Assembly (NCBI RefSeq): GCF_004138485.1
Contig: NZ_RYEV01000006.1
Location: 62,001 to 126,000, forward strand
Source of the DNA: Peristeroidobacter soli
GTDB lineage: Bacteria; Pseudomonadota; Gammaproteobacteria; Steroidobacterales; Steroidobacteraceae
Direction: 5' to 3'
DNA: 64,000 nucleotides
The number at the start of each line of letters is the position of its first letter. Within the stretch, counting starts at the first letter, position 1. The position numbers and the translations under genes were made by a program. This document shows, piece after piece, positions 8,476-49,125 of this stretch. The notes under the pieces are model-generated. The model made no database searches, was not told where the DNA came from, and saw only the letters and a list, made by a program, of their open reading frames with translations.

Positions 8476-8485
8476 TGGCGGCGTG

Positions 8486-14624: not shown

Positions 14625-14695
14625 TCCGATGATCGAAAGCGGCCGAGGCCCTTGCGATGCGCCCGGCAAAAGACGCGACTTTTACTGGGCTGGCC

Positions 14696-20692: not shown

Positions 20693-21457
20693 ATGTCTCG
20701 TTATATCGTCAAGCCGTTGTTGAAAGCGATCGAGGTGCTGAAATGTGTCGGGCAGCTGCCCGAACCGCAGTCCTTGAAGGAAATCGCGCTGCGCGTCGGT
20801 CTGCCCAAGACCACGGTGTTTCGATATCTGCGCACGCTGGAAGCCGCCGGCATGATCGTTCACGACACGGAGCGCGACCGGTTCCGGATCGATGTCCGCA
20901 TCATCGGCATGATCAATCTCGGCAGCGAGATGGAGCGGCTGCGCAACGTGTGTCTGCCGCACATGCAGACGCTGTGCCGGCTCTGCGGCGAGACCGTCAA
21001 CCTCGGGGTTCTGGAGGGGTCGGACATCGTCTATCTGGAGATCCTGCAGGCGCCGCAGGCCGCCAAGCTGCAGGCGCGAATCGGCGGGCGCCACCCGAGC
21101 CATACCACCTCCATCGGAAAAGTAATGCTGGCCAACATGACGTCGGAGGCACGCGCGGCGGCCTTGCCTCGCGTGCTTCGTCAACGTACGCGACGGACGA
21201 TTCTGGAGCGACAAAGCCTGTTTCTGGAGCTCGATAAAATTCAACGCCTCGGCTATGCCGAGGACGACAGCGAGAACGAAGACGGCGCGCTGTGCCTGGG
21301 GGCGCCGGTCTTCGATGCCTCGGGTGAGGTGATCGCGGGGCTGAGCATTTCGGCACCGACCGTCGGCGCGTCGGCCGATTGGAAACGAGAGATGACCGCC
21401 CATGTCATCGCCGAGGCGCGTTCCATATCGACGGAGCTCGGCTTCGTAGCTGGCTGA
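20693..21457 (+). CDS. IclR-family transcriptional regulator
   Basis: A 254-residue regulator. The N-terminal winged helix-turn-helix (about 8-65, with SLKEIALRVGLPKTTVFRYL) binds DNA. The IclR effector domain (about 75-250) includes GRHPSHTTSIGKVMLANM and ends with APTVGASADWKREM...; it senses a small metabolite. Its stop is 11 bases before a 19-bp near-palindrome that recurs 6.2 kb downstream in front of the GH39 and TonB-receptor operons. The gene is therefore the obvious candidate regulator of the whole 21549-37532 catabolic region. IclR proteins can repress or activate; the sign is not deducible here. Confidence 0.92.
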   Translation: MSRYIVKPLLKAIEVLKCVGQLPEPQSLKEIALRVGLPKTTVFRYLRTLEAAGMIVHDTERDRFRIDVRIIGMINLGSEMERLRNVCLPHMQTLCRLCGETVNLGVLEGSDIVYLEILQAPQAAKLQARIGGRHPSHTTSIGKVMLANMTSEARAAALPRVLRQRTRRTILERQSLFLELDKIQRLGYAEDDSENEDGALCLGAPVFDASGEVIAGLSISAPTVGASADWKREMTAHVIAEARSISTELGFVAG

Positions 21458-21467
21458 TTGCCGGCGG

Positions 21468-21486
21468 CATTTCACGTCGCGAAACA
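21468..21486. promoter_or_regulatory. Candidate IclR operator, site 1
   Basis: catttcacgtcgcgaaaca, with core TTTC...GAAA at 21470-21484, is a near-perfect 7-1-7 palindrome (one mispaired position). It is 63 bases before the aminotransferase start. Site 2 at 27706-27724 matches it at 17 of 19 positions, differing only in the two central bases. IclR-family operators are typically 15-bp-type palindromes with TTTC/GAAA-like ends. Binding by the adjacent IclR protein is inferred. Confidence 0.65.
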
Positions 21487-21548
21487 TCGGCCGCTCGTAT
21501 TTTTCCGTGGCTTGAGCCATTTATGCAGCACCGTAAGGTCGCTCGCCA

Positions 21549-22859
21549 ATGGACTCACTCATGTCACTCAACTCGTTCGATCTCTCCAAGGCACGGATGG
21601 CCGCCGCCGCGAAGTTTCTCGCCGGCGGCGTCAGCAGCAACTTCCGCCTCAACATCTCGCCCACGCCCCTGGTGATCGACAACGGTTACGGGCCGTATGT
21701 CGTCGACGTCGATGGCCATCATCTGATCGACTATTACCTGGGCATGGGCCCGATGATTCTCGGGCATGCTCCCAAGGCGGTCATCGAGGCGGCGCGCTCG
21801 CAGCTCGATCGCGGCATCATCTTCGCCAGCCAGACGGAAGTGGAGTTCGAAGCCGCGCGGCTGGTTTGCGAGCTGGTGCCGTGCGCCGAGCGCGTGCGAT
21901 TCGGTTCGTCGGGCACCGAAGTGATCCAGGCGGCGCTGCGTCTGGCTCGTGCCGCGACCGGCAAGCAGACTGTCGTCAAGTTCGAAGGTCACTATCACGG
22001 CTGGCTCGACAATGTGCAGTGGAGCGTCGCGCCGTCGGCCGCCGCGTGCGGTCCGATCGAACATCCCAACAAGGTGCCCGGCACGCCGGGGCAGGACCTC
22101 CAGTGCGGCACGAATGTAGACGTGCTCGGCTGGAACGATCTCGGTGCCGTCGAGCGGCGTCTCGCTCGAGGCGATGTCGCGGCGGTCATCATGGAACCCG
22201 CGATGTGCAATACCAGCGCCATCGCGCCGAACCCGGGTTATCTGGAAGGCGTGCGCGCGGCTTGCAGCAAGGCGGGCGCGATCTTGATCTTCGACGAAGT
22301 CATCACCGGCTTTCGTCTGTCGGCCGGCGGTGCGCAAGGCCTGTTCGGTGTCAAACCGGATCTGGCCACGTTCGGTAAGGCGATCGCGAGCGGATTTCCC
22401 GTCGCGGCGCTCGCGGGGCGCGCGGACCTGATGGATCTGTTTGCCAGCGGCGGCGTCATGCACGGTGGCACGTACAACGCCCATCCGGTCAACATGGCGG
22501 CCACCGTTGCCACGCTTCGCACGCTCGCACAGGGTGACGTCTATGCCGCGGTCGAGAAGCACGGCCGACGTTTGATGGCAGGCATCGAAGAGACCCTGCA
22601 GCACTATGGCATTCCCGCGCGCATCCAGGGCTTCCCTGGCATCTTCCACGTCGCTTTCGGTGTGACGACGCCGATTGTTTCCTTTCGCGATACGTTCCAC
22701 ATCGATCGCGCCCGTTACATCAGATTCACCACCGCATTGATCGAGCGAGGTGTGCGGGCGTTGGAGCGCGGCGCGTGGTTCCTGTCATCGGAGCACGATG
22801 AGAGCGTGATCGCGGCGACACTGGATGCCGTGTCGGGAGCCGCCAAGGCTGTGGCGTGA
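21549..22859 (+). CDS. Class III PLP aminotransferase, glutamate-1-semialdehyde aminomutase-like
   Basis: A 436-residue fold-type I PLP enzyme resembling HemL. Visible are the early FLAGGVSSNFR, GSSGTEVIQAALRLARA for phosphate binding, KFEGHYHGW, FDEVITGFR containing the PLP-ring aspartate, and FGKAIASGFPVAA with the Schiff-base lysine. True HemL moves an amino group within glutamate-1-semialdehyde for heme synthesis. The location at the head of a sugar-type catabolic operon next to an IclR regulator argues for a paralogue acting on an amino sugar, amino acid or amino-acid-like compound. ATG 21549 is chosen; ATG 21561 is possible. Its stop overlaps the GTG of the following SDR. Confidence 0.85.
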   Translation: MDSLMSLNSFDLSKARMAAAAKFLAGGVSSNFRLNISPTPLVIDNGYGPYVVDVDGHHLIDYYLGMGPMILGHAPKAVIEAARSQLDRGIIFASQTEVEFEAARLVCELVPCAERVRFGSSGTEVIQAALRLARAATGKQTVVKFEGHYHGWLDNVQWSVAPSAAACGPIEHPNKVPGTPGQDLQCGTNVDVLGWNDLGAVERRLARGDVAAVIMEPAMCNTSAIAPNPGYLEGVRAACSKAGAILIFDEVITGFRLSAGGAQGLFGVKPDLATFGKAIASGFPVAALAGRADLMDLFASGGVMHGGTYNAHPVNMAATVATLRTLAQGDVYAAVEKHGRRLMAGIEETLQHYGIPARIQGFPGIFHVAFGVTTPIVSFRDTFHIDRARYIRFTTALIERGVRALERGAWFLSSEHDESVIAATLDAVSGAAKAVA

Positions 22860-23617
22860 GCGAGGCCTCGTATCCCAGTCTCAGGAATCGTCACGTCGTC
22901 GTCACTGGCGGTGCAGATGGCATTGGTGCGGCGTTGGTGGCGGCATTTGCCCGCCAGGGTGCAAGGGTCACCTTTCTCGACATCGACGATGACAGGGCGC
23001 GAGCCACGCTGGCTCGCGTCGAGGAACGAGGCGGCGCAGGTCGTTACATACATTGCGACCTGACCGACGTTGCCGCGCTCCAATCGACATTGCGGGATGC
23101 CATGCGCGAATGGGGGCCGGTCACCGTGCTGGTCAACAACGCAGCCAATGACGAGCGCCGCGACTGGCAGGTCGTGACCAGCGAGGAATGGGATCGGCAG
23201 ATCGGTGTCAATTTGAAACAGCAGTTCTTCGCCATTCAGGCAGTGGCGCCGGCGATGGCCGAGGCTGGCGGCGGTTCGATCGTCAACATGGGCTCGATCA
23301 TCTGGAAGCTCGGCAGCGGCGGCTTGCCCTGTTATGCAACGGCCAAAGCCGCCATCGTCGGGCTGACGCGCTCGTTCGCGCGAGACCTCGGCTCGTCGAA
23401 CATCCGCGTCAACTCGGTGTTGCCTGGCGCCATCATGACCCGGAGGCAGATCGAGCTGAGGCTCACGCCGGACGCGGAGCAGAGCATCCTTCGCGGGCAA
23501 TGTCTCAAACGGATGCTCGTGCCGGCGGATGTGGCACCCATCGTGCTGTTCCTGGCCGCCGACGACGCGGCCGCCTGCACCAACCAGAACTATGTCGTCG
23601 ACGGTGGCTGGAGCTGA
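22856..23617 (+). CDS. SDR dehydrogenase, sugar 1-dehydrogenase (XylB)-like
   Basis: A 253-residue classical SDR. It has VTGGADGIGAAL for NAD(P), an acidic residue set after beta-2 (FLDIDDDRARAT) favouring NAD, NNAANDERR, and the catalytic Tyr/Lys in CYATAKAAIVG. Several stretches (YPSL near the start, FARQGA.V.FLDI, NNA.ND.R, QCLKR..VP, VDGGW at the end) resemble Caulobacter D-xylose 1-dehydrogenase as recalled. The likely reaction is oxidation of an aldose at C1 to the lactone. GTG 22856 starts it, overlapping the previous stop, and its own stop overlaps the ATG of the dehydratase by one base, so the coupling is tight. Confidence 0.85.
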   Translation: MSEASYPSLRNRHVVVTGGADGIGAALVAAFARQGARVTFLDIDDDRARATLARVEERGGAGRYIHCDLTDVAALQSTLRDAMREWGPVTVLVNNAANDERRDWQVVTSEEWDRQIGVNLKQQFFAIQAVAPAMAEAGGGSIVNMGSIIWKLGSGGLPCYATAKAAIVGLTRSFARDLGSSNIRVNSVLPGAIMTRRQIELRLTPDAEQSILRGQCLKRMLVPADVAPIVLFLAADDAAACTNQNYVVDGGWS

Positions 23618-25341
23618 TGACCAAGCAACGAAAACTGCGCTCGACCCACTGGTTCGGCGCGCACAGCAAGGATGGTTTCATTCACCGCAGCTGGTTGAAG
23701 AACCAGGGCTACCCGTCCGATCTGTTCGACGGGCGGCCGGTGATCGGCATCTGCAATACCTGGTCAGAGCTCACGCCCTGCAACGGCCATTTTCGGGCGC
23801 TCGCCGAACACATCAAACGCGGCGTCTACGATGCCGGCGGCTTTCCGCTGGAGTTTCCGGTCATGTCGACCGGCGAGGCGCTGGTGCGGCCCACCGCGAT
23901 GTTGTTTCGAAATCTGATGAGCATGGACGTGGAGGAGACCATCCGCGCCAATCCGGTCGACGGCGTCGTGTTGATCACCGGCTGCGACAAGACCGCGGTC
24001 GGACCCTTGATGGGCGCGGCCAGTTGCAATCTGCCCATGATCGTCGTGCCCGGCGGTCCGATGTTGAACGGCAAGTTTCGCGGCTGCGATCTCGGCTCGG
24101 GAACGTCGGTCTGGGAATTCAGCGAGGAAGTGCGCGCGGGCCGGATGAGCATGAGCGATTTCATGGCGGCGGAAGAAGGCATGTCGCGCTCGGCCGGCCA
24201 CTGCAACACCATGGGCACGGCCTCGACCATGGCGTGCATGGCCGAGGCGCTCGGCTTGACGTTGCCCGGGGCAGCGGCGATTCCTGCTGTCGATGCCCGC
24301 CGCAATGTGAGTGCGCGGCTGACCGGCAGGCGCATCGTCGAGATGGTGAACGAGGAGCTCACGCCGCACAAAATTCTGACGCGAGCCGCGTTCCAAAATG
24401 CGATTCGCACCTTGGGAGCGATTTCCGGCTCCACCAACGCGGTCGTGCATCTGCTGGCCATCGCCGGCCGGATCGAAACGCCACTCACGCTCGACGATTT
24501 CGATCGCTGGGGGCGCGCAGTGCCGACGCTGCTGGATGTGCAGCCGGCCGGCGCACTGTTGATGGAAGAGTTCTATTACGCCGGCGGTTTGCCCGGCGTG
24601 TTACGCCGGCTCCACGAAGCCGGGTTGTTGAATCCCGATGCGTTGACCGCCAATGGTCGAACGCTGGTGGACAACAGCGCGACCGCGCCTGTTCACAACG
24701 ACGCGGTCATCCGTCGCTTGCATCAGCCACTGGTCGAAGAAGGTGGGATTGCGGTGTTACGCGGTAATCTCACTCCAGCCGGCGCCATTCTGAAGCCCGC
24801 CGCCGCGACGCCGGCTCTGTTGCAACATCAGGGCCGCGCTGTCGTGTTCGAGAACATCGAGGATTACAAACAACGCATCGACGATCCCGATCTGCCGGTC
24901 GATGAAAGCAGCGTGCTGGTGCTGAAGAACTGCGGACCGATGGCCTATCCCGGCATGGCCGAAGTCGGGAACATGGGACTGCCTCGCAAGCTGCTGGAGC
25001 GTGGCGTTCGCGACATGGTGCGCATTTCGGATGCGCGAATGAGCGGCACGGCGTACGGCACGGTGGTTCTGCACGCAGCGCCTGAGGCTGCGGCGGGAGG
25101 CACGCTTGCGTTGGTGCGGACTGGAGATGGGATCGAGCTCGATCTGGCAGGCCGTCGTCTGCATCTGGATGTGAGCGATGTCGAACTGGCGCGACGTAGA
25201 GCGCAATGGCAGCCGCCCCGTAACGAGCAGCGTGGCTACGCGCAGCTCTACGTCGATCACGTGCTCCAGGCCGACCGCGGCGTCGACTTCGATTTCCTGG
25301 TCGGCTGCCGCGGCGTCGAGGTGGCTCGCGAAAGCCACTGA
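23617..25341 (+). CDS. IlvD/Edd-family sugar-acid dehydratase
   Basis: A 574-residue [2Fe-2S]/Mg dehydratase. Candidate cluster ligands are Cys55 (TPCNGHF), Cys123 (TGCDKT) and Cys196 (GHCNTMGT), at the same spacing as in bacterial pentonate dehydratases. ISGSTNAVVHL and RISDARMSGTAYG are family signatures. The NTWSELTPCN and RSTHWFG starts place it in the L-arabinonate/D-xylonate/galactonate branch rather than IlvD proper. It removes water from an aldonate to give the 2-keto-3-deoxy acid. It follows an SDR predicted to make the aldonolactone; no lactonase gene is seen. ATG 23617 is used, because the upstream open frame runs inside the SDR gene. Confidence 0.9.
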   Translation: MTKQRKLRSTHWFGAHSKDGFIHRSWLKNQGYPSDLFDGRPVIGICNTWSELTPCNGHFRALAEHIKRGVYDAGGFPLEFPVMSTGEALVRPTAMLFRNLMSMDVEETIRANPVDGVVLITGCDKTAVGPLMGAASCNLPMIVVPGGPMLNGKFRGCDLGSGTSVWEFSEEVRAGRMSMSDFMAAEEGMSRSAGHCNTMGTASTMACMAEALGLTLPGAAAIPAVDARRNVSARLTGRRIVEMVNEELTPHKILTRAAFQNAIRTLGAISGSTNAVVHLLAIAGRIETPLTLDDFDRWGRAVPTLLDVQPAGALLMEEFYYAGGLPGVLRRLHEAGLLNPDALTANGRTLVDNSATAPVHNDAVIRRLHQPLVEEGGIAVLRGNLTPAGAILKPAAATPALLQHQGRAVVFENIEDYKQRIDDPDLPVDESSVLVLKNCGPMAYPGMAEVGNMGLPRKLLERGVRDMVRISDARMSGTAYGTVVLHAAPEAAAGGTLALVRTGDGIELDLAGRRLHLDVSDVELARRRAQWQPPRNEQRGYAQLYVDHVLQADRGVDFDFLVGCRGVEVARESH

Positions 25342-25344
25342 GTA

Positions 25345-25372
25345 GTCAGCCGCGCTATCGGGCGCGGCTGAC
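25345..25372. terminator. Convergent hairpin between dehydratase and FAH genes
   Basis: An 11-bp perfect stem (gtcagccgcgc at 25345-25355 with gcgcggctgac at 25362-25372) has a 6-base loop. It starts 4 bases after the dehydratase stop, and its right part covers the last codons of the minus-strand gene. It may serve both operons. No T-run is present on either side. Confidence 0.5.
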
Positions 25373-26203
25373 GAATTGGTGTTGTTGGGTGCCGAGCCCT
25401 TCGATCCCAAGCGAGACGCGGTCGCCGCTGCGGAGGAAGCGCGGCGGCTTGCGGCTCATGCCCACGCCGGAGGGCGTGCCGGTGGTGATGATATCGCCGG
25501 CACGTAACAACATGAGCCGCGACAGGTACGCGACCAACTGATCCGGCGTGAAAATCATCTGGCGAGTGTTGCTCGACTGCACGGTCTCGTCGTTCACTCG
25601 CAACCACATCGACAGCGCGGTCGCGTCGGGCACGCTATCCACGTCGACCAGCCACGGCCCGAGCGGACCGAAGCCGGGAAAGCTCTTGCCCTTGACCCAT
25701 TGGCCGCCGTGCTCCAGCTGGAACTTGCGTTCTGAAATGTCATGGCAAACGCAGTAGCCAGCGATGAACTCGCGAGCCTGCGAGGGCTCGATTTCGTAAC
25801 AATCCTGCGAGATCACTATCGCGAGCTCGCACTCCCAGTCCGTCGCCGTGGAGCCCGCGGGCAGCGGCACATCGTCGTTCGGCCCGGCGATACACGAGAC
25901 GGCTTTGTTGAATACGATGGGCTCGCCCGGCACGGCGGCGCCGATTTCGTGGGCATGATCGCGATAGTTGAGCCCGATGGCGAGGAAATTGCTGGTGCCG
26001 GCGACGCATGGCCCGAGCCGTGCGCCGGCCTCGACCAGCGGCAACCGTTGCGGATCCAGTTCGCGCAGCCGGCGCATCACGCGTGGTGCGAGGAACTCGC
26101 CGCCGACGTCGCCGATCTCGGCGGATAGATCTCGTAAGGAACCATCGGCGGCGACCAGGCCCGGTCGCTCCTGACCGGCCACACCATATCTGATCAGTTT
26201 CAT
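25355..26203 (-). CDS. Fumarylacetoacetate hydrolase (FAH) family protein
   Basis: A 282-residue FAH-fold enzyme with a short N-terminal domain and the catalytic domain from about residue 75. It has AIGLNYRDHAHEIG, a metal site with DWECELAIVI, CHDISERKFQ, KSFPGFGPLGPW and GDIITTGTPSGVG, as in the acylpyruvase/2,4-diketo-acid hydrolase group. Members cleave C-C bonds of diketo acids or dehydrate 2-keto-3-deoxy acids. It lies 18 bases downstream of the GH39 gene, in the same minus-strand operon whose promoter region holds IclR site 2. Context therefore gives it the last carbon-splitting step after the IlvD/Edd dehydratase. The exact reaction (hydrolase versus dehydratase) is not resolved. Confidence 0.85.
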   Translation of the reverse strand: MKLIRYGVAGQERPGLVAADGSLRDLSAEIGDVGGEFLAPRVMRRLRELDPQRLPLVEAGARLGPCVAGTSNFLAIGLNYRDHAHEIGAAVPGEPIVFNKAVSCIAGPNDDVPLPAGSTATDWECELAIVISQDCYEIEPSQAREFIAGYCVCHDISERKFQLEHGGQWVKGKSFPGFGPLGPWLVDVDSVPDATALSMWLRVNDETVQSSNTRQMIFTPDQLVAYLSRLMLLRAGDIITTGTPSGVGMSRKPPRFLRSGDRVSLGIEGLGTQQHQFVSRAR

Positions 26204-26221
26204 TCGATCGATCTCCGTAAC

Positions 26222-27634
26222 TTATTGGGCACGCAGCTTCACGAGCGTGACAGAGGGGGCGGCGACGTTGGTGATCGTGAGTAGTTCGCCCGCTTTGAGC
26301 GAGCGGGTCTCGGTCTGCTCGAGGTTGTGGCTCGCATCGATGCGATAGATCGCGGCGGAGGTGGCGCCCTTCCAGGGAACGTTCTTCAGCGCGATGGTGT
26401 ACGCCGAATGGTTCGAGACCTGGTTGCTGATCATTACCGAGGCGGATTTGCGATCTTCAGCCAGGCCGGCGAGCACCGCGAACGATGCTTCGTCACTCGT
26501 CTCGGCGCCATCGGCCTGCACGCGTAGCGGCGTGTCGAGCATCCAGCGAAAGGCGCGGAATGGATAGAAGTTCTTGTAAGGCACGCCGTGGTTGTCGTAC
26601 ATGCCCCAGAAAAATGCGGTGCCGGTGTAGTAGTTGGCGACGTCCACCTTGGAGTCCTGCAGGAAAGTGAGCATCGCGCCGGCATAGGCCGCGCCTTCGA
26701 GGCCGTGAATGCGCTCGAAGATCTGCTGGGTATAGAGCGGCTCGACATGCATCCGATTCCAGTCGCCGGGAAAGTAGTTCCACTCGTTCAGATGAATCTC
26801 GGCCTTCGGGTAGCCGCCGCTGTCCGTCAGCGCGCGAATGTGGTCGGCCCGGCGCGCGACCAGGAAGGGGCGGGTGCCGTAGTTGTGCCAGGAGACGAAG
26901 TCGATCGGCACGCCGCGTTGCTTGTTATAAGCGAGAAAGTCCTTGAGGAACTGGTCGTTCGAAGCCAGTGCCGGGCCGCCGACTTTCAGCGTGGCGTCGT
27001 AGCGTTTGAGCGCGGTGGCGGTGGTGGCGTACAGCCGGTAGTACTGCTCGGCCGTGCCGCTCCAGAAGTTCGGCACGTCCGGCTCATTCCAAACTTCCCA
27101 ATAACGAATGCCGAAGCGGTGACCGTCGGCCCAGCCCTCGTTGTAGTGACGCACGATGTTGACCGCGACCTTGGCCCACTTGTCGTAGTCGGCCGGCGGA
27201 TGACTGTAGTACTTCACCTTGGTGAGCTCGGCGCTCTCGCCGATGCGGAAAATGATCTCGGCCTTCAGATCCACCAGCGACTGGATGTAGCGGTCGGTCT
27301 TGCTGAAGTCGTAGTTCTTCGGGTCGTCCGGATCGGCGGAGAAATCGCGGAAGATCACGTGCATGTCGCCGGCGGCTTCGTAGACCCAGGGAGTGTCGTG
27401 GGTGCGGATGTAATGGAAGCCCAGCTCGCGATATTGCTCGGTGAGATCCACCGAGCCACGCACGGCGAGTGGACCGCTGTGGACGTCGTGTAGCGGACGG
27501 ATGCGCCCGGTTTGTTTGCGCAGATCGACGTTGATCGGTTTCGTCTCGTCGTCGGTTTGCTGCGCGTTGCCAACGCCGGTGAATGCGAGTGCGGCGAGCG
27601 TGCACGCGGCAGCTAAGATGCGGAATGATCTCAC
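26222..27634 (-). CDS. Exported glycoside hydrolase, GH39-like (beta-xylosidase type)
   Basis: A 470-residue enzyme with a signal peptide (VRSFRILAAACTLAALAFTG, then cleavage near GNAQQ). GTG 27634 is preferred because AAGGA lies 7 bases upstream; ATG 27679 adds 15 residues without a better site. The TIM barrel shows YWEVWNEPD with the acid/base glutamate and EIHLNEWNYF with the probable nucleophile glutamate. A beta-sandwich C-terminal domain follows from about residue 370. GH39 holds beta-xylosidases and alpha-L-iduronidases plus rarer specificities. It is the first gene of a minus operon with the FAH gene, divergent from the TonB receptor. It should release the sugar oxidised by the SDR and dehydratase. 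Confidence 0.85.
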   Translation of the reverse strand: MRSFRILAAACTLAALAFTGVGNAQQTDDETKPINVDLRKQTGRIRPLHDVHSGPLAVRGSVDLTEQYRELGFHYIRTHDTPWVYEAAGDMHVIFRDFSADPDDPKNYDFSKTDRYIQSLVDLKAEIIFRIGESAELTKVKYYSHPPADYDKWAKVAVNIVRHYNEGWADGHRFGIRYWEVWNEPDVPNFWSGTAEQYYRLYATTATALKRYDATLKVGGPALASNDQFLKDFLAYNKQRGVPIDFVSWHNYGTRPFLVARRADHIRALTDSGGYPKAEIHLNEWNYFPGDWNRMHVEPLYTQQIFERIHGLEGAAYAGAMLTFLQDSKVDVANYYTGTAFFWGMYDNHGVPYKNFYPFRAFRWMLDTPLRVQADGAETSDEASFAVLAGLAEDRKSASVMISNQVSNHSAYTIALKNVPWKGATSAAIYRIDASHNLEQTETRSLKAGELLTITNVAAPSVTLVKLRAQ

Positions 27635-27705
27635 GAGGTTTCCTTGGTGACGCCAGGTGGTTCGCGAGGACCTTATCACGGGCCCCCGCCCGCGGCAGTC
27701 GGCGC

Positions 27706-27724
27706 CATTTCACGCGGCGAAACA
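27706..27724. promoter_or_regulatory. Candidate IclR operator, site 2
   Basis: catttcacgcggcgaaaca lies in the 177-bp divergent region between the GH39 gene (start 27634) and the TonB receptor (start 27812). It matches site 1 (21468-21486) at 17 of 19 positions; only the two central bases differ. Placement between divergent operons would let one bound dimer affect both. The role is inferred. Confidence 0.65.
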
Positions 27725-27811
27725 GGCTGAACTGGTATTCCCGGAAGCGCTCGCTGACACTCGTTGACACAGGGGCAGGCGTCATCGAGCGTCAATATGG
27801 GGTACACGAGA

Positions 27812-30157
27812 ATGTCACGACAGCATCACCGTCGATTGCAGAAGATCGCCGCGTTGGCTCTGGCTTCGCCCGGGCTATCGCTCTACATGGGGGCAGCCAG
27901 CGCCGCGGAGGAGCGCTCGGCGCAGATCGAAGAGATCATCGTCACCGCGCAGAAGCGGGCCGAGGGTTCCAGCAAAGTACCGATCAGCTTGAGCGTCTAC
28001 GACGCCGAGACCCTGGACCGGATCGGTGCGCGGGACTTCAACGATGTAGTAAAGGTGACGCCCGGCATCGAGTTCAGCGACGACCGCGGCGCCAAGAAGA
28101 ACATCACCATCCGCGGCATCTACTCACAGGCCGGCTCGGCCACCTCCGGAATCTACATCGACGACGTGCCCGTGCAGGTACGCGTCGGCATCTTGAATCT
28201 GGTCGGCGTGGGCACGCCGCGTATCTTCGATCTGGAGCGCGTCGAGATCCTGCGCGGCCCGCAGGGCACTTTGTTTGGAGCCAGCGCCCAAGGCGGCGCA
28301 GTTCGATTCATCACGGCACAACCGAGCTTGACGGACTTCAGCGGCTACTCGCGTGCGGATATCTCCAGCACCGAAGGCGGCGAGCTCGGCTACGAGGCCG
28401 GCGTGTCGCTGGGTGGCCCGATCGTGGAGAACAAGGCGGGCTATCGGGTCAGCGCCTGGTATCGCCGCGATGGCGGTTACATCGATCACGACAGCTTCCT
28501 GCCCGGCGGCGCCGTCGAGAAGGACGCCAACTGGTCGGAGTCGACAGTGGTGCGTGGGGCGCTGACGTTCGCGCCGACCGAGTCGCTGCGAATCACGCCA
28601 TCGATGTTCCTGCAGAAGGTGAACATCAACGACAGCGGCTTCTTCGATCCCAGCGCCTCCAACGTGGACGACACCGATTTCGTCAACAAGAACGCGTTGC
28701 TGACGCCGGCCGATGACAAGTTCTATCTGCCGTCGCTGAAGATCGAGGCGGACCTCGGGCCGGTGAGCTTGACCGCGCTGACCGGTTACATGCGCCGCGA
28801 GAACGACTACGCGCTCGACTATACAAACGTGGTGGCGAGCTTCTTCGGTCTGGCGGCGGCACGCTCCATTTCGGAAGCCTCGCCGGTGCCTTACTCGAAC
28901 CATCAGGATGTTTACAGTCAGGAGCTGCGTCTGCAGTCCTCCGATCCGGACGCGCGGTTGAAATGGACCGTCGGCGGCTTCTATTCGTACCTGCGCCAGG
29001 AGGTCCACCAGCAGATCGTGAGTCCGGCGCTGCCGGCGATGACCCAGGAGCTGTGGGGCATGACGGTGCCGTACGCCTGGGGCGCCGACATGGTCAACGG
29101 CGATCGTTCGTTCGATGCGACCAATATCCTGCGCGATCGTCAGCTCGCCGGATTTGCGCAGTTCGACTATCGCGTGCTCGACAAGCTGACATTGATTGCG
29201 GGTACACGCGTCGCACGGCAACGCAGCGGCTACTCGTACAATGCGGCGGGCCCGGTCAACGGCGGCACGACGGCGCGCTCGGGCGAGCAGGAAGAGACTG
29301 CGATGACGCCGAAGTTCGGCATCAACTATCAGGTGAACGATAGCAACCTGCTGTACGCGAGCGCTGCCAAGGGCAATCGCATGGGCGGCGCCAATACGCC
29401 ATTGCAACCGACCCCGCAATGTACCGCGCAGCTGCAGGAGATCGGTGTGACCAGCACGCCGAGCTCTTACGATTCCGACGAGCTGTGGAGCTACGAGGTC
29501 GGCTCGAAGAATCGCCTGTTCGGTAACCGTCTGGCGATCGAGGGCAGCGCCTACTACATCGACTGGAAGGACATCCAGCAGTCGATCTATGTGCCGGACT
29601 GCCTGGCCTCGTTCGTTGCCAACGTCGGCAAGGCCGAGGTGAAAGGCTTCGACCTGCTGGTCAACGCGCGACTCACCGAGAGCTTCCATCTGGGACTGAA
29701 CGTCGGCTATACCGATGCCAAGGTGGCCGAGACCGCCGGCGTCCCCGGCACCAACATCGTCTATGCGTACAAGGGCGACCAGCTCGACATGTTCCATTCA
29801 CCCTGGCTGTTCGCCGCGTCGCTGGAATATGCCTTCGGGCTCGGCGGCTACGAGGCCTACCTGCGCGTCGACGATCAGTATCGGCCCAAGAACCCCGGCC
29901 CGTTCACCAGCCTGGATCATCCTGGCACGCCGAACTATTCGACGCTGTACCAGCCGAACCCGTCGCAGAACATCCTCAACTTCCGCGCCGGCATGATGGT
30001 GAACGGTATGGAGCTGTCGTTGTACGTCAACAACGCGCTCAACGATCATCCATTCCTCTATGACCTGGCCGCGCTGGGCGTGGGCGGCTCGGCGCTGGGC
30101 TCGACCTTTACAGTTCGGCCCCGTACCGTCGGCATGGGCATGTTGTATCGCTGGTAA
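27812..30157 (+). CDS. TonB-dependent receptor (carbohydrate-type, no STN)
   Basis: A 781-residue outer-membrane receptor. A signal peptide (about 1-33) starts with the basic MSRQHHRRLQK. A TonB box, EEIIVTAQKR, is followed by the plug (VPISLSVYDAETLDRIGARD, then ERVEILRGPQGTLFGASAQG) and a barrel ending in GMGMLYRW with a terminal aromatic residue. EEIIVTAQKR is typical of receptors serving carbohydrate or aromatic substrates in Sphingomonadales, Caulobacter and Steroidobacter. ATG 27812 is chosen for its signal peptide; ATG 27797 is in frame. Its stop overlaps the start of the ABC binding protein by one base, so outer- and inner-membrane uptake are co-expressed. There is no sigma/anti-sigma pair beside it, so control by the IclR protein is more likely. 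Confidence 0.9.
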   Translation: MSRQHHRRLQKIAALALASPGLSLYMGAASAAEERSAQIEEIIVTAQKRAEGSSKVPISLSVYDAETLDRIGARDFNDVVKVTPGIEFSDDRGAKKNITIRGIYSQAGSATSGIYIDDVPVQVRVGILNLVGVGTPRIFDLERVEILRGPQGTLFGASAQGGAVRFITAQPSLTDFSGYSRADISSTEGGELGYEAGVSLGGPIVENKAGYRVSAWYRRDGGYIDHDSFLPGGAVEKDANWSESTVVRGALTFAPTESLRITPSMFLQKVNINDSGFFDPSASNVDDTDFVNKNALLTPADDKFYLPSLKIEADLGPVSLTALTGYMRRENDYALDYTNVVASFFGLAAARSISEASPVPYSNHQDVYSQELRLQSSDPDARLKWTVGGFYSYLRQEVHQQIVSPALPAMTQELWGMTVPYAWGADMVNGDRSFDATNILRDRQLAGFAQFDYRVLDKLTLIAGTRVARQRSGYSYNAAGPVNGGTTARSGEQEETAMTPKFGINYQVNDSNLLYASAAKGNRMGGANTPLQPTPQCTAQLQEIGVTSTPSSYDSDELWSYEVGSKNRLFGNRLAIEGSAYYIDWKDIQQSIYVPDCLASFVANVGKAEVKGFDLLVNARLTESFHLGLNVGYTDAKVAETAGVPGTNIVYAYKGDQLDMFHSPWLFAASLEYAFGLGGYEAYLRVDDQYRPKNPGPFTSLDHPGTPNYSTLYQPNPSQNILNFRAGMMVNGMELSLYVNNALNDHPFLYDLAALGVGGSALGSTFTVRPRTVGMGMLYRW

Positions 30158-31449
30158 TGATGAAGTCTCTGATCGTTCTGTTCAGCCTGCTGTTTGCAGC
30201 GGTCGCCAGTGCGCCGCTGCAGGCAGCGGGCCGGTTCGAGGGTGTGACGCTGATCCACATGGTGCAGGCAGGCGCCGCGCAGCGCCTGGCCGGCTATCGA
30301 ACCTTCGCGCGGGAGTTTCAGGCCGCCACCGGAGCGCAGGTCCTGTTCGTCGAAACGCCTTGGGAACAGATGCAGGATCAGATGATGAGCGACTTCATCG
30401 GCCGGGCCGGCAGCTACGACGTGTTCGATGTCGATGAGGCCTGGGACGCGAATATTCGGGCTTATCTGCAAACGCTCGATCCCTATGTCGCCGGTTCCGG
30501 ATTCGATATCGACGACTATCGCGGCTTGAACGGCTTGCTGGGTCTGGATCCCGGCGCGCGTCGGCGCTACGGAATTCCGCTGACGGGCCGTTCGATGGTG
30601 TTGTTCTATCGTGCCGATGTCCTCGCCGCCGCGGGGATTGCGCCACCGCGCAACTGGGACGAGCTGATCGCCGCCGCGCGCGCCGTCACGACCAAGAAAT
30701 TTCACGGCATCGTCGCGGCCGGCGTCAACGTGCAGCTCAATAAATATTTTTTCTCGGCGTACAAGGCGGGCGAGCGTCGTTCGCTGTTCAGCGCCGACGG
30801 TCGGCCGCAGTTCGGGGGTGAGGAGGGCGCACGCGCACTCGACCGGCTCAAGCAACTGTTTGCCTATGCGCCGCCCGGCGTATTCGCAATGGACATTGCG
30901 GAAGCCGATCAGGTGTTTCTCAACGGCGAGGCCGCGTTCCTGCTGGAATGGCCCGACTACATCCAGCCGAATCTCGACGATCCGAAGAAATCGCGCATCG
31001 TCGGTAAGTGGGCCGCGATGCAGCCGCCGGGGCCGGGTGGCTACGCCGGCTGGCATCTCGCGGCCTCCGGATATTCCGAGCACAAGGACGCGGCGTGGGC
31101 CTGGATCGAATTTGTCACCAGTGCGCGCAATGCCAAGCGGTTGATGGTGGAGCACGGCATCTATGCCACGCGCAGCTCGGTGCTCGCCGATCCGGAAGTC
31201 GCCACGCGCTTTCCGGGCATCGACGCGGTCAGGGCCGCGGCAGCCGCGTCGTTCCGACCCGGTTTCGAAGGTCATCCCAAGGGTATCGGCTGGTTCGTGC
31301 AGGCCGGCGCCATCTGGTCGGAAGCGTTGACCGGACAGATGACATCCCAACAAGCGGCGCGTTCGGCGGCCACGCTGTGGAGCAAGCTGTTCGATTCCAT
31401 GCCGGGACCGGCCAATCACGACTACTCCGATATCGACGCGCTCCAATGA
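30157..31449 (+). CDS. ABC transporter sugar-binding protein
   Basis: A 430-residue periplasmic binding protein of the extracellular solute-binding family 1. A signal peptide (MMKSLIVLFSLLFAAVASAP) with signal-peptidase-I-type cleavage near LQAAG precedes two lobes. GLDPGARRRYGIPLTGRSMV and LEWPDYIQPN are typical of oligosaccharide/glycerol-phosphate-type binders. It overlaps the TonB receptor by one base at its start and the first permease by four bases at its end. It delivers the substrate to the permease pair; the binding specificity cannot be read. The YSEHKDAAWAWIEFV segment matches family 1 closing regions. Confidence 0.88.
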   Translation: MMKSLIVLFSLLFAAVASAPLQAAGRFEGVTLIHMVQAGAAQRLAGYRTFAREFQAATGAQVLFVETPWEQMQDQMMSDFIGRAGSYDVFDVDEAWDANIRAYLQTLDPYVAGSGFDIDDYRGLNGLLGLDPGARRRYGIPLTGRSMVLFYRADVLAAAGIAPPRNWDELIAAARAVTTKKFHGIVAAGVNVQLNKYFFSAYKAGERRSLFSADGRPQFGGEEGARALDRLKQLFAYAPPGVFAMDIAEADQVFLNGEAAFLLEWPDYIQPNLDDPKKSRIVGKWAAMQPPGPGGYAGWHLAASGYSEHKDAAWAWIEFVTSARNAKRLMVEHGIYATRSSVLADPEVATRFPGIDAVRAAAAASFRPGFEGHPKGIGWFVQAGAIWSEALTGQMTSQQAARSAATLWSKLFDSMPGPANHDYSDIDALQ

Positions 31450-32369
31450 TGCTCACTGCACGATTGCGCACCTGGCTTCGAGACGATCGGATCGCGGCGC
31501 TGCTGTTCATCTCGCCCTGCATCCTCGCGCTCTGCGTCGCCTATCTGTTTCCGCTGATCTATTCGGCGTACCTGAGCTTTTGCGAGTGGGACATTCGCAC
31601 GCCGGGCGCGCCGATCGAGCTGTCGGGCGTGGACAACTATCGCGATGTGCTCGCCGACGGGCAGTTCTGGTCGTCGGTGGGACGCTCGCTGGTGTTCACG
31701 CTGGTGGCGCTGCCGGCCGAGCTGCTGCTCGGCACGTTAGTGGCGCTGCTGCTGACCAACGAGCGCTTGAGCGGACGTCTCACGGGTCTGTCGCGCGTAG
31801 TGCTGCTCGTGCCGCTCATGGTGCCGCCGGTGGTCACCGGCATTCTGTGGCGCTTGCTGTTCAATGTTCAGTACGGCCCGCTGAACGCGGCGTTGGGGTT
31901 CTTCGGGTTGAATCCGCAGCCCTGGATTTCCCAGCCGGACACCGCCATGGCCGCGGTGCTGGTGGTGGAGATTCTCACCAACACGTCGATCGTGGCCATG
32001 ATCCTGATGGGCGGCATGATGGCGCTGCCCCAGGAGCCGATTCGAGCTGCGCAGATGGATGGCGCCTCGCCGCTGCGCGTGCTGCTGGAAATCAAACTGC
32101 CCATGCTCGCGCATCTGTATCTGATCGTCGGTTTGATCCGGCTGATGGATCTGTTGAAGACTTTCGACTTCATCTACGCCATGACCTTCGGCGGACCGGG
32201 CGTGAGCACGCAGACGCTGAACATCTATATCGTGCGCCTGGGCAGCCGCTTTCTGGAATATCCGGCGGCGGCCGCGGCTTCGTGGATCTTCCTCCTCATG
32301 CTGCTGCCGCCTTCGATCTATCTGCTGCTCAAAGCGGTGCCGCGCAACCAGGCGTACTTGAATGATTGA
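31446..32369 (+). CDS. Sugar ABC transporter permease (MalF/UgpA type)
   Basis: A 307-residue inner-membrane protein with about six transmembrane helices, starting RIAALLFISPCILALCVAYL. The EAA coupling loop is PIRAAQMDGASPLRVLLEIK, which docks on the ATPase. ATG 31446 overlaps the binding-protein stop by 4 bases; a longer open frame upstream is inside the preceding gene. It pairs with the next permease. Confidence 0.9.
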   Translation: MMLTARLRTWLRDDRIAALLFISPCILALCVAYLFPLIYSAYLSFCEWDIRTPGAPIELSGVDNYRDVLADGQFWSSVGRSLVFTLVALPAELLLGTLVALLLTNERLSGRLTGLSRVVLLVPLMVPPVVTGILWRLLFNVQYGPLNAALGFFGLNPQPWISQPDTAMAAVLVVEILTNTSIVAMILMGGMMALPQEPIRAAQMDGASPLRVLLEIKLPMLAHLYLIVGLIRLMDLLKTFDFIYAMTFGGPGVSTQTLNIYIVRLGSRFLEYPAAAAASWIFLLMLLPPSIYLLLKAVPRNQAYLND

Positions 32370-33243
32370 CGCAATCGACGCTGGCGAGCACACGCTCAGG
32401 CGGCGCCGGCAACTCAGAGACTCTGTGCGCGCCGCGGGCCTGTATCTGTGCCTCGGGCTATTGTTGTTCGTGCTGTTGTTTCCAGTGTACTGGCTGCTGT
32501 TGAGCTCGCTGAAACATCAGTCGGATTTCTTCACCTCGCCGCCGGTGTTCCTGACTACGCAGCTGACGACCGAGCACTACCAGGCGGTGCTCGCCGATCC
32601 GTTCAATCGCCGTTATCTGCTGAATACGGCGATCGTGGCCGTGGTGAGCACCTTGCTCGCGACGCTGGTCGGCACTGCCGCCGCGTACATCCTGGCGCGG
32701 ATCCGTCTGCCGATCCGCCTCAACAGGGTGTTGCTGGTCTGGATTCTGGTGAACCGACTGTTCCCGCCGATCAGCTTCGCCATTCCCTACTACCTGCTGA
32801 TTCGCGAGCTCGGCCTCATCGACACGCTGGCGGCGCTGATTCTCTCCAACACCGCGGCGGCGATTCCGTTCGTGGTGTGGACCATGCTCGGTTATTTCCA
32901 GGATCTGCCGAAAGAAGTCGAGCGTGCCGCCATGATCGACGGCTGCACGCTGTGGCAGCGTTTCGTGCGCGTCGTCATGCCCATGTCCACGACCAGCATG
33001 GTGATCACCGCCATCTTCGTCTTCATCTATGCCTGGAACGAATTGTTGTACGCGCTGACGTTGACGGTGCTCAAGGCGAGGACCGTGCCGGTGGCGATCG
33101 CGGGCTACGTTGGCGACAACGCGCTCGCCTGGGGACAGATGAGCGCGTTCGGCGTGATCTCCTTCGTGCCGGTCATGATCGCGGTGTTGGCTGTGCAGCG
33201 ACACATCGTGCGCGGTCTGACGTTCGGTGCGGTCAAATCATAG
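32362..33243 (+). CDS. Sugar ABC transporter permease (MalG/UgpE type)
   Basis: A 293-residue inner-membrane protein with about six helices. The first long hydrophobic helix is LYLCLGLLLFVLLFPVYWLL and the EAA loop is KEVERAAMIDGCTLWQRFVR. It overlaps the first permease by 8 bases. It forms the heterodimeric channel with it and binds the ATPase encoded 25 bases downstream. Confidence 0.9.
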   Translation: MIDAIDAGEHTLRRRRQLRDSVRAAGLYLCLGLLLFVLLFPVYWLLLSSLKHQSDFFTSPPVFLTTQLTTEHYQAVLADPFNRRYLLNTAIVAVVSTLLATLVGTAAAYILARIRLPIRLNRVLLVWILVNRLFPPISFAIPYYLLIRELGLIDTLAALILSNTAAAIPFVVWTMLGYFQDLPKEVERAAMIDGCTLWQRFVRVVMPMSTTSMVITAIFVFIYAWNELLYALTLTVLKARTVPVAIAGYVGDNALAWGQMSAFGVISFVPVMIAVLAVQRHIVRGLTFGAVKS

Positions 33244-33268
33244 TAAGCGGGGGCGTGAGCGCGACAGC

Positions 33269-34348
33269 ATGGCAGGCATTGAGCTGAATAGAATTAGCAA
33301 GACGTTCGGTGCGACACATGTGATCGACGACGTGTCGGTCAGCGTGGCGCCGCATGAGTTCGTCACGCTGCTGGGTCCCAGCGGTTGTGGCAAGAGCACG
33401 CTGCTGAACATTGCGGCCGGACTCGAACGGCCCACCGACGGTCGCGTGCTGATCGGCGGCCGCAATGTCACCGACCTGTCGGCGCGCGATCGCAATGTCG
33501 CCATGGTGTTCCAGAGCTACGCGCTCTATCCGCACATGACCGTCGCGCAAAATCTGGCGTTCCCGCTGCGCATTCAGCGCCTGCCGCGCACGGAAATCTC
33601 TCAGCGCGTGCGTGCGGTTGCCGAGACCATCGAGTTGGGAGGGCTGCTGGATCGCAAACCTGCGCAGTTGTCGGGTGGCCAGCGCCAGCGTGTCGCCATC
33701 GGTCGCGCGATCATTCGTTCGCCGGCGATTTGTTTACTCGATGAGCCGTTGTCCAACATCGACGCTGCCCTGCGCGTACGCATGCGCGGCGAGCTCAAGC
33801 TGCTGTTCAACAAGATGGGTACGACGATCATGTTCGTCACGCACGATCAGGTGGAGGCGATGACGTTGAGCGATCGCATCATCGTGCTCAACGGCGGCAA
33901 GGTTCAGCAGCAGGGCACGCCGTTGGAAATCTATCGCAATCCGGCCAACGTGTTCGTCGCCCGCTTCATCGGCAGTCCTCACATGAACATCCTGCAGGCG
34001 CAGCTCGATAGCGGCGTCGTCAGCGTGGCAGGGCTGAGATTGCCGCTATCCGGTCATGCCGGACGCAGCGGCGCGGTGCAGTTGGGGCTGCGGCCGGAGG
34101 ACGTGCAGCTGGGCCGTTTCGAGAAGTGCGTGAGCGTGCCCGCGCAGGTCAAGCTGGTCGAACATCTGGGGCATGGCGCCATCGTTCACTACGCGCTGGA
34201 CGATCTGCCGCCCATCGTCGGTCTGGAGACGCGCGACACGGATATTCGCGCCGGCTGGCAAGGAAACATTCATATCAATCTGGACGGGATCAAACTGTTC
34301 GACGCGGTCACTGGCCTGGCGTGGCCGGATCGGAAGGGGATGGCATGA
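33269..34348 (+). CDS. Sugar ABC transporter ATPase (MalK/UgpC type)
   Basis: A 359-residue ATPase. The nucleotide-binding domain (about 1-235) has Walker A GPSGCGKST, Q-loop VFQSYALYPHMT, signature LSGGQRQRVA, Walker B ICLLDEPLSN and the switch histidine in FVTHDQVEA. The C-terminal part (about 240-355) is a TOBE/MalK-like regulatory domain. ATG 33269 is used; upstream codons in frame lack a proper site. It energises import through the two permeases. The stop overlaps the next ATG by 4 bases. Confidence 0.92.
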   Translation: MAGIELNRISKTFGATHVIDDVSVSVAPHEFVTLLGPSGCGKSTLLNIAAGLERPTDGRVLIGGRNVTDLSARDRNVAMVFQSYALYPHMTVAQNLAFPLRIQRLPRTEISQRVRAVAETIELGGLLDRKPAQLSGGQRQRVAIGRAIIRSPAICLLDEPLSNIDAALRVRMRGELKLLFNKMGTTIMFVTHDQVEAMTLSDRIIVLNGGKVQQQGTPLEIYRNPANVFVARFIGSPHMNILQAQLDSGVVSVAGLRLPLSGHAGRSGAVQLGLRPEDVQLGRFEKCVSVPAQVKLVEHLGHGAIVHYALDDLPPIVGLETRDTDIRAGWQGNIHINLDGIKLFDAVTGLAWPDRKGMA

Positions 34349-35826
34349 GTCGGCGCGTTGCAGTCGGCCTGCTGATGCAGGAGTCCAATTCGTTCTCGCC
34401 GCTCGCGACCACGGTGGCGACGTTCGAAAACTACTTCCTGCATCGGGGCGAGGCAATCTTCGGTGCCGGGTTCGAGCGGGCACACATCGAGATTCATGGT
34501 TTCATCTCGGAGCTGCGTGCCGCGGGCGTGACGCCAGTACCGTTGCTGGCCGCTGGTGCTTTCGCCGGTGGCCCGCTGACCGAAGCGGCATTCGATGCAC
34601 TGGTCGGTGAGATGGAATCGCGGTTGCGCGAGGCACTGCCCGTCGATGGACTGCTGTTGGCTTTGCATGGCGCCCTGGTGGTGGAAGGTGGGGCGAGGCG
34701 GGGTGATGCGGAAATCATCGCCCGTCTGCGCCGCATCCTGCCGCCAGACGTTCCCATCGGCATCACCTTCGATCTGCATGGACACATCACGCCGGAGATG
34801 CTGCAGCCCAATTGTTTCCACGTCGGTTATCAGCAGTATCCGCATATCGATATTTACGAAACCGGCCAACGTGCCGCGCGCTTGATGGTCGACACGCTCG
34901 ATGGCAAGCGACGTCCCGTCATGGCCCTCGCGAAGTGTCCGATGGTCGTGAGTGCGGTGTGTGCTCGCACCACGGACGGAGGGTTGGTTCCTGTGGTCGC
35001 TGCCGCTCGCCGTGCTGAGTTGAGCGGGCGTGTGTTACATGCGTCGCTGTTTCCGGTGCAACCATGGATCGATGTGCCGGACCTGGGGTTCGCGGCGCTG
35101 GTATGCGCGGACGGCGACGTGGCCGTGGCGGAACAGGTTGCAGCTGAGCTGGCGCAAGCAGCTTGGAATCAGCGAGATCAGTTCACGCCCGAATTGGTCG
35201 AGCTGGATGACGCGATTCGTATCGGTCTGTCATCGGAGGGCTTGACTGTCGTCAGCGATGCCGGCGACGCGCCAAGCGGCGGCTCGGCGGCCGACAGCAC
35301 TGCGGTACTGCGTGCGCTATTGGCGGCCGGAGCCGAGCGCGGCAAACGGCTCGTCTATCTCTCGATCTGCGATCCAGCCGTCGTGACCGTGGCCCAGCGA
35401 ATGGGCGTGGGCGCCAGTATTGAAGTCGACATCGGCCATTACTATTCGCGCAGCGACGGTGCTCCGTTGCGGATCAGTGCCACGGTGCAGCTGCTGTCCG
35501 ATGGTCGATATCACATGCGCGATCAGGACATGGAGATCGGCATGGGCCGGACGGTGGTACTCGCGGTGGGTGCGCTCCGGTTACTGGTGCGGACGCTGCC
35601 GTCCTTCGAATGGGATGTGGCCATGTATCTGTCGCAGGGACTGGATCCCGCTGCCGCGGCGCTGATCTTCGTGAAATCGCCGGGGGGCTTTCGTCATTCG
35701 TTCGGCAAATGGGCACAGCGCATTTTGATCGCCGACACTCCGGGGCCGACCTGCGCCAATATGAAACGAATTCCGTTCACCCGGGTGACGCGGCCGCTGT
35801 ACCCATTGGATTCGTTGCCCGAGTGA
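34345..35826 (+). CDS. M81-family (MlrC, microcystinase-like) metallohydrolase
   Basis: A 493-residue protein of the MlrC/M81 family. It starts GLLMQESNSFSPL and carries the metal-site segments ITFDLHGHITPEM, YPHIDIYETG and SDAGDAPSGGSAADST, as in microcystin-degrading MlrC homologues. The C-terminal MlrC domain covers about 300-480. The family is thought to cleave peptide or amide bonds, and most members outside the mlr cluster have unknown substrates. It is locked into the uptake operon by 4-base overlaps on both sides. This suggests that the imported molecule carries an amide or peptide-like bond, or that it is an amidase acting on an intermediate. It has no signal peptide and is cytoplasmic. 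Confidence 0.85.
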   Translation: MSRRVAVGLLMQESNSFSPLATTVATFENYFLHRGEAIFGAGFERAHIEIHGFISELRAAGVTPVPLLAAGAFAGGPLTEAAFDALVGEMESRLREALPVDGLLLALHGALVVEGGARRGDAEIIARLRRILPPDVPIGITFDLHGHITPEMLQPNCFHVGYQQYPHIDIYETGQRAARLMVDTLDGKRRPVMALAKCPMVVSAVCARTTDGGLVPVVAAARRAELSGRVLHASLFPVQPWIDVPDLGFAALVCADGDVAVAEQVAAELAQAAWNQRDQFTPELVELDDAIRIGLSSEGLTVVSDAGDAPSGGSAADSTAVLRALLAAGAERGKRLVYLSICDPAVVTVAQRMGVGASIEVDIGHYYSRSDGAPLRISATVQLLSDGRYHMRDQDMEIGMGRTVVLAVGALRLLVRTLPSFEWDVAMYLSQGLDPAAAALIFVKSPGGFRHSFGKWAQRILIADTPGPTCANMKRIPFTRVTRPLYPLDSLPE

Positions 35827-49054: not shown

Positions 49055-49125
49055 GGGTACATGGATGTACCCCGCCGCCACAGGCGGCGAGCGAGAGGCA
49101 AAAGTCGCGCCTTTTGCCGGCTCGC
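49055..49125. repeat. REP-like multi-hairpin element between glyA and nrdR
   Basis: Three consecutive stems are seen. gggtacat (49055-49062) pairs with atgtaccc (49065-49072). gccgcc (49074-49079) pairs with ggcggc (49083-49088). ggcaaaag (49097-49104) pairs with cttttgcc (49111-49118), with gcgag/ctcgc (49091-49095 and 49121-49125) extending the last. The gtacatggatgtac type of palindrome is common in dispersed intergenic repeats of Gammaproteobacteria. It may also help terminate glyA. Confidence 0.65.

Follow-up and report, generated by a model that had tools for sequence, protein, structure and literature searches.

What governs the catabolic genes that surround an IclR-family regulator gene in Peristeroidobacter soli? 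The question arises in a 64,000-nucleotide stretch of its genome (RefSeq assembly GCF_004138485.1, contig NZ_RYEV01000006.1, positions 62,001 to 126,000 of the forward strand), hereafter the window, whose own numbering is used below. Two 19-bp near-palindromes on its forward strand, CATTTCACGTCGCGAAACA (operator 1, 21468-21486) and CATTTCACGCGGCGAAACA (operator 2, 27706-27724), lie beside three presumed operons, and a first-pass annotation made from the letters had proposed that the product of the local iclR gene (20693-21457, forward strand) acts through them on all three. Our analysis makes this very likely: the two near-palindromes are predicted operators of the local IclR protein, which would jointly control an aminotransferase-SDR-dehydratase operon, a GH39-FAH hydrolase operon, and an operon encoding a TonB-dependent receptor, an ABC importer, an M81 enzyme, and Dld. 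The proposal is supported by conservation in a close relative, by reciprocal ranking of the sites between the two genomes, and by the fit to a published IclR-family consensus. The locus adds a new case to a kind of gene control that is already known.

The placement of the two sites is as the first-pass annotation had it, with one behind iclR and before the aminotransferase operon and the other between the divergent GH39-FAH and TonB operons. Operator 1, which occupies the gap between iclR and the aminotransferase gene, starts 11 nt past the iclR stop codon (21457), and its centre is at -72 relative to the aminotransferase ATG (21549). Operator 2 is common to the divergent GH39 and TonB promoters, with its centre at -81 from the probable GH39 start (27634) and at -97 from the probable TonB start (27812), or -82 from the alternative start at 27797. 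The two 19-mers do differ at two central bases alone, and their arm pairing is partial (6 of 9 in operator 1 and 5 of 9 in operator 2). The earlier claim that the window holds no other copy extends even to matches with up to three mismatches, of which shuffled sequences average 0.27. Nor did the whole-genome scan that had been proposed as a check reveal a crowd of extra copies: in the 9,374,132 bases (17 contigs) of this genome, G000, the 19-mer pattern has 2 exact matches, 1 match with two mismatches, and 19 with three, and the pattern read backwards as a control has 8 matches in all. The palindromic core TTTCRCGNNGYGAAA occurs exactly at three places in the genome, namely both operators and one further position, C3:1249256, which was set aside as lying within an open reading frame (ORF) that reads FecR-like when its translation is judged by eye. 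Also set aside were two adjacent weak copies on contig C10, one inside and one just past the end of an ORF that by eye resembles an IS110-type transposase, and a copy at C5:193261 within a 633-codon open frame.

Conservation outside the genome could be assessed in one close relative. A search of 217 family genomes with the iclR product (E up to 1e-40) matched one other genome, G084, at 76% identity; no further close regulator was found in 369 class genomes and 396 order genomes (E up to 1e-50), and a phylum search (398 genomes, E up to 1e-40) returned three distant regulators with 35-39% identity. G084 has the same gene order, with iclR, aminotransferase (83%), GH39 (71%), TonB (57%), ABC importer, and M81 (67%). 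The first-pass annotation had said that loss of the motif in such a relative would tell against its reading; instead, G084 retains copies at both matching places, the iclR-aminotransferase gap and upstream of GH39, and has one more upstream of TonB, TGTTTCACACAGTGAAACA, whose 8-bp arms are perfect. This third copy lies in the last codons of an extra ORF between GH39 and TonB that matches part of a GH2 barrel (32 bits against a cut-off of 21). In alignments of the two genomes the flanks have diverged, and the dyad stays conserved together with a few short stretches, one of them -10-like. When a matrix is built from the three sites of G084, the top two places in 464 kb of G000 are the window sites, and a matrix built from the two window sites ranks the G084 sites 1 to 3 in 436 kb. 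SDR, IlvD, FAH, and Dld are not at the G084 locus, so control of those genes could be tested solely through operon position in the window. The G084 protein nearest to the window's IlvD (68% identity) is encoded beside an SDR gene at C1:927874-929577, in a motif-free stretch. The comparison suggests that the SDR-IlvD pair was gained by, or lost from, the regulon. Attempts to extend the regulon in G084 were rejected: two FAH genes also lie away from the locus, one of them, like the remote IlvD-SDR pair, in a stretch with no site, and near the second there is a weak site some 600 nt behind the gene and another several kb off.

The sites can also be compared with operators already described for the family. 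Suvorova and Gelfand (2021) distinguish two IclR-family operator types with half-sites in opposite order, group 1 with the consensus GKTYCRYW3-4RYGRAMC and group 2 with TGRAACAN1-2TGTTYCA (PMC8222616). The majority of group 1 sites are centred at -20 to -80 from the gene start, falling off to -300, and sugar and sugar-acid genes are frequent in the GTT-11-AAC subgroup (PMC8222616). With the centre left free, each window site has 1 mismatch to the group 1 consensus, and the G084 sites have 0, 0, and 1. The window sites share with group 1 operators the half-sites, an odd-length N3 centre, and a place upstream of a gene start; they differ in a left arm that begins with A (their one mismatch) and in centres, GTC and GCG, that are not A/T-rich as W3 would be. 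Their distances from the gene starts (-72, -81, and -97/-82) are near or just beyond the main zone, which we count as agreement, and the three G084 sites supply conservation together with the regulator in one close relative. Within 80 bp of the window sites, no convincing second tandem site was found at up to two mismatches, and the best group 2 pair has 5 mismatches.

The regulator itself belongs clearly to the family. The iclR product (254 aa) matches the Pfam models HTH_IclR (54.3 bits, cut-off 22) and IclR_C (145.5 bits, cut-off 24). Its best NCBIfam model is KdgR, at 165.5 against a cut-off of 275, followed by BhcR (152 of 350 bits) and pcaR_pcaU (140 bits, below the cut-off of 284.75). 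KdgR, the pectin/galacturonate regulator of gammaproteobacteria, serves a route with 2-keto-3-deoxy acids, as the local regulator probably does, and its half-sites have similar letters (GAAAC). However, the motif given for KdgR in that survey, RWWGAAACGNCGTTTCAKKA, has the group 2 half-site order (TGRAACA then TGTTYCA; PMC8222616), opposite to that of the window sites, where the group 2 order is not found. From these comparisons the local regulator is KdgR-like by sequence, not by operator, and is not KdgR. Regulators of the PcaU/PobR/PcaR type have related outward half-sites, but they differ from the local system, which has no third box beside the window dyads and whose targets have no aromatic-catabolism names.

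More distant clusters offer a wider view of the motif. Loci were picked by similarity to the regulator or the aminotransferase, not by motif, from genomes G1168 (L121), G985 (L120), and G1117 (L122), a Microvirga plasmid (L075), and four further family genomes (L116 to L119, aminotransferase at 47-49%). Other searches added little: a regulator search of genome contigs gave one distant Acidobacteria match (30%) with no site, a phylum search with the aminotransferase gave no additional genome, a plasmid search with the regulator gave 22 records, all below 60% identity, of which Microvirga alone was taken into the neighbourhood comparison, and a plasmid search with the aminotransferase gave Microvirga again and five weaker records. 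Similar palindromes stand beside cluster genes in five of the more distant clusters; the three others have none at up to one mismatch. For instance, L121, whose cluster also encodes an SBP_bac_5-type ABC importer, has group 1 type palindromes at 1752 and 4625, in the gap of a divergent M81 pair and ahead of a third M81 gene. From 10 loci, among them the window and G084, 20 gaps upstream of or between cluster genes were taken, and 13 of these hold a site at up to one mismatch, 4 of the sites being exact. These 13 sites fall in 4,436 bp of gaps, and 25 sites, those 13 counted, in all 228,560 bp of the loci; the background at the same setting is 8 sites in 400 kb of G000 and 11 in 400 kb of G084. 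Because the gaps had partly been chosen after scanning, the test was repeated with mechanically set upstream regions, in which 10 of 26 sites fell within 14,527 of 244,560 bp (5.9%, p = 1.2e-6).

The half-sites of these clusters can be set beside the recognition helices of their regulators. The helix KTTxFR is found in the regulators of the window, G084, L075, L120, and L121, and the half-site GCGAAAC occurs in all five clusters. L116, L117, and L118 (from G059, G096, and G011) each hold a single cluster with TonB, aminotransferase, M81, FAH (in two of the three), a distant SDR, IlvD, and a different IclR regulator whose helix reads KSSVHR. In two of the three, L117 and L118, the TonB-aminotransferase gap has GTTCCAT-N3-ATGGAAC-like palindromes with TGGAAC halves. 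L119 also has a TGGAAC half, and its short contig yielded no regulator. The L122 regulator has the helix KPTLYR. Operator half-site and recognition helix may thus have changed together between lineages, judging from these few cases.

Care must be taken with several results that weigh against the two sites being operators. The first-pass annotation had considered seventeen shared bases unlikely by chance, a claim that does not hold by itself: the window contains, after collapsing, 176 pairs of 19-mers with 17 or more bases in common, and, uncollapsed, 22 pairs (the operator pair included) in which both copies have at least 5 of 9 palindromic arm pairs, the value of the weaker operator, compared with 3 to 20 such pairs in 20 dinucleotide shuffles. 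Part of the 22 belongs to a tandem repeat near 8.7 kb. Judged by window statistics alone the operator pair does not rise above chance, and the case for predicted operators is carried by position and cross-genome conservation, not by window probability. Close orthologues of the regulator in the searched genomes number just one. Seven of the 20 gaps lack a site, namely the purL-iclR gap, that of L120 (two mismatches), three in L122, the gap between the divergent M81 genes of the Microvirga L075, and that of L116; some gaps were, as said, chosen after pattern scans of the same loci, and 16 of the 26 sites lie outside the mechanically set regions. The relaxed palindrome at up to two mismatches occurs at 92 places in G000 against 80 for its reversed control, and at 82 against 21 in G084; so relaxed, the pattern is common and tells nothing by itself. 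When one mismatch at most is allowed, the pattern has 5 places in G000, 2 of them the operators, and 9 in G084, 3 of them the operators. Eight of the nine other places were examined and rejected, lying inside or beside ORFs with no cluster-protein match. Five of the six in G084 were among these (4279203 was left out), three in coding-like open frames and two in listed ORFs, and the five 3-kb loci around them gave no cluster-protein match.

Two side observations belong here. The relaxed palindrome is four times as frequent as its reversed control in G084, but not in G000. The tandem repeat of the window has a unit of about 57 bp in about three copies (8672-8870), inside the open frame 8483-10282.

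How else might the two sites be explained? A chance likeness of two short GC-rich stretches with no operator function would be compatible with the window statistics alone, but it is scarcely credible given that G084 conserves the sites at matched places, that the sites of each genome find those of the other at the top of the ranking, and that similar sites are enriched in the more distant clusters. A conserved promoter or RNA element, rather than an operator bound by a protein, is also very improbable. Other short stretches near the sites are indeed conserved, for example CCATTTATG before the aminotransferase gene and TGnTAAnGT before GH39; against this, the same dyad stands ahead of three different promoters, and no sigma-70-type promoter scored in either region.

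A rival that deserves more weight, although we consider it unlikely, is that the sites do serve as operators, but for a different regulator whose gene lies elsewhere, whether an IclR paralogue or an unrelated palindrome binder, with the local IclR a mere neighbour. The genome has 28 first-look candidate relatives of the regulator, the consensus is common to many IclR proteins (PMC8222616), and the gap upstream of iclR itself (purL-iclR) has no site, the best match having 4 mismatches. However, iclR is the sole regulator among the genes common to the window and the G084 locus. In a scan of 26 window ORFs outside the block, which are part of the window's ORFs, 20 had a Pfam match and no helix-turn-helix regulator was found; a FecR protein and a protein kinase carrying a cyclic-nucleotide domain came closest to a regulatory role. 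In a small number of clusters, moreover, the half-site and the linked regulator's recognition helix differ together. We infer that the local IclR protein is the binder, from its linkage to the sites, its conservation together with them, and the fit to the family consensus.

The three operons predicted to be under local IclR control are compact: neighbouring genes either overlap or leave gaps of no more than about 20 nt. Operon 1, on the forward strand, is led by a class III aminotransferase of the glutamate-semialdehyde-aminomutase-like type (21549-22859), followed by an SDR dehydrogenase (22856-23617; nearest NCBIfam model D-xylose 1-dehydrogenase, 325 bits, under its cut-off of 400) and an IlvD/EDD-type dehydratase (23617-25341), which passes the PRK06131 subfamily cut-off and scores 853 against 882 for L-arabinonate dehydratase. 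Operon 2, on the reverse strand, is led by a GH39 glycoside hydrolase (26222-27634), for which the GTG at 27634 is favoured over the ORF-list start at 27679, and continues with an FAH-family hydrolase (25355-26203) nearest to 2,4-didehydro-3-deoxy-L-rhamnonate hydrolase (341, cut-off 500). Operon 3, on the forward strand, starts with the TonB-dependent receptor (27812-30157, the start being uncertain between 27797 and 27812), continues with the ABC importer (30157-34348; solute-binding protein, two permeases, and ATPase) and the M81 (MlrC-like) metallohydrolase (34345-35826), and ends with Dld, a D-lactate dehydrogenase (35823-37532; 898 bits, NCBIfam cut-off 391).

Going by family names, the gene set probably serves the import and breakdown of some sugar-containing compound. 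In the route that we infer from these names, a glycoside would be taken up, its sugar released by GH39, oxidized by the SDR enzyme, dehydrated by IlvD, and hydrolysed by FAH, with Dld oxidizing D-lactate, and the aminotransferase and M81 enzyme would act on the amino or amide part of the substrate. An IclR dimer, or two dimers as a tetramer, would bind sites of the type GTTTCRC-N3-GYGAAAC and thereby control the three operons together. The inducer would be an intermediate of the sugar or sugar-acid route and, by analogy to KdgR, is probably a 2-keto-3-deoxy acid.

The promoter context gives some indication of the sign of regulation. A scan of both gaps scored no sigma-70-type -35/-10 pair, and a terminator scan gave matches at or below shuffle level. 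The extended -10-like TGnTAAnGT before GH39 starts 28 nt from the site edge in both genomes (counted by hand), so the centre of operator 2 would be near -50 of the likely GH39 transcription start. This position, the lack of a scored -35/-10 pair, and the use of one site for two divergent promoters lean slightly towards activation or dual regulation and away from a repressor that simply blocks.

With this analysis, a motif found by eye becomes a testable regulon, in which M81 (MlrC-like) hydrolases and a glutamate-semialdehyde-type aminotransferase are tied to one regulator. It may also be a small natural case in which, within the IclR family, an operator and the recognition helix of its regulator have changed in step. 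A broader reading is offered tentatively, as somewhat less than probable: the clusters may represent a scattered catabolic regulon of Pseudomonadota, not yet described, that combines IclR, the glutamate-semialdehyde-type aminotransferase, M81 hydrolases, and TonB/ABC import, with FAH, IlvD, and SDR sugar-acid enzymes in the window's family, that serves a glycosylated amino compound such as a sugar amide or beta-amino-acid conjugate, and in which recognition helix and half-site have co-changed between two lineages. A literature search, mostly outside subscription journals, found no paper with both 'M81 family' and 'IclR family', and no IclR/M81/aminotransferase regulon appeared in titles and abstract openings among the matches listed. 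Elsewhere in the window, an inverted repeat of the GGCAAAAG...CTTTT type was seen in matching form at 14662-14683 and 49097-49121, perhaps a dispersed palindromic repeat or a pair of terminators.

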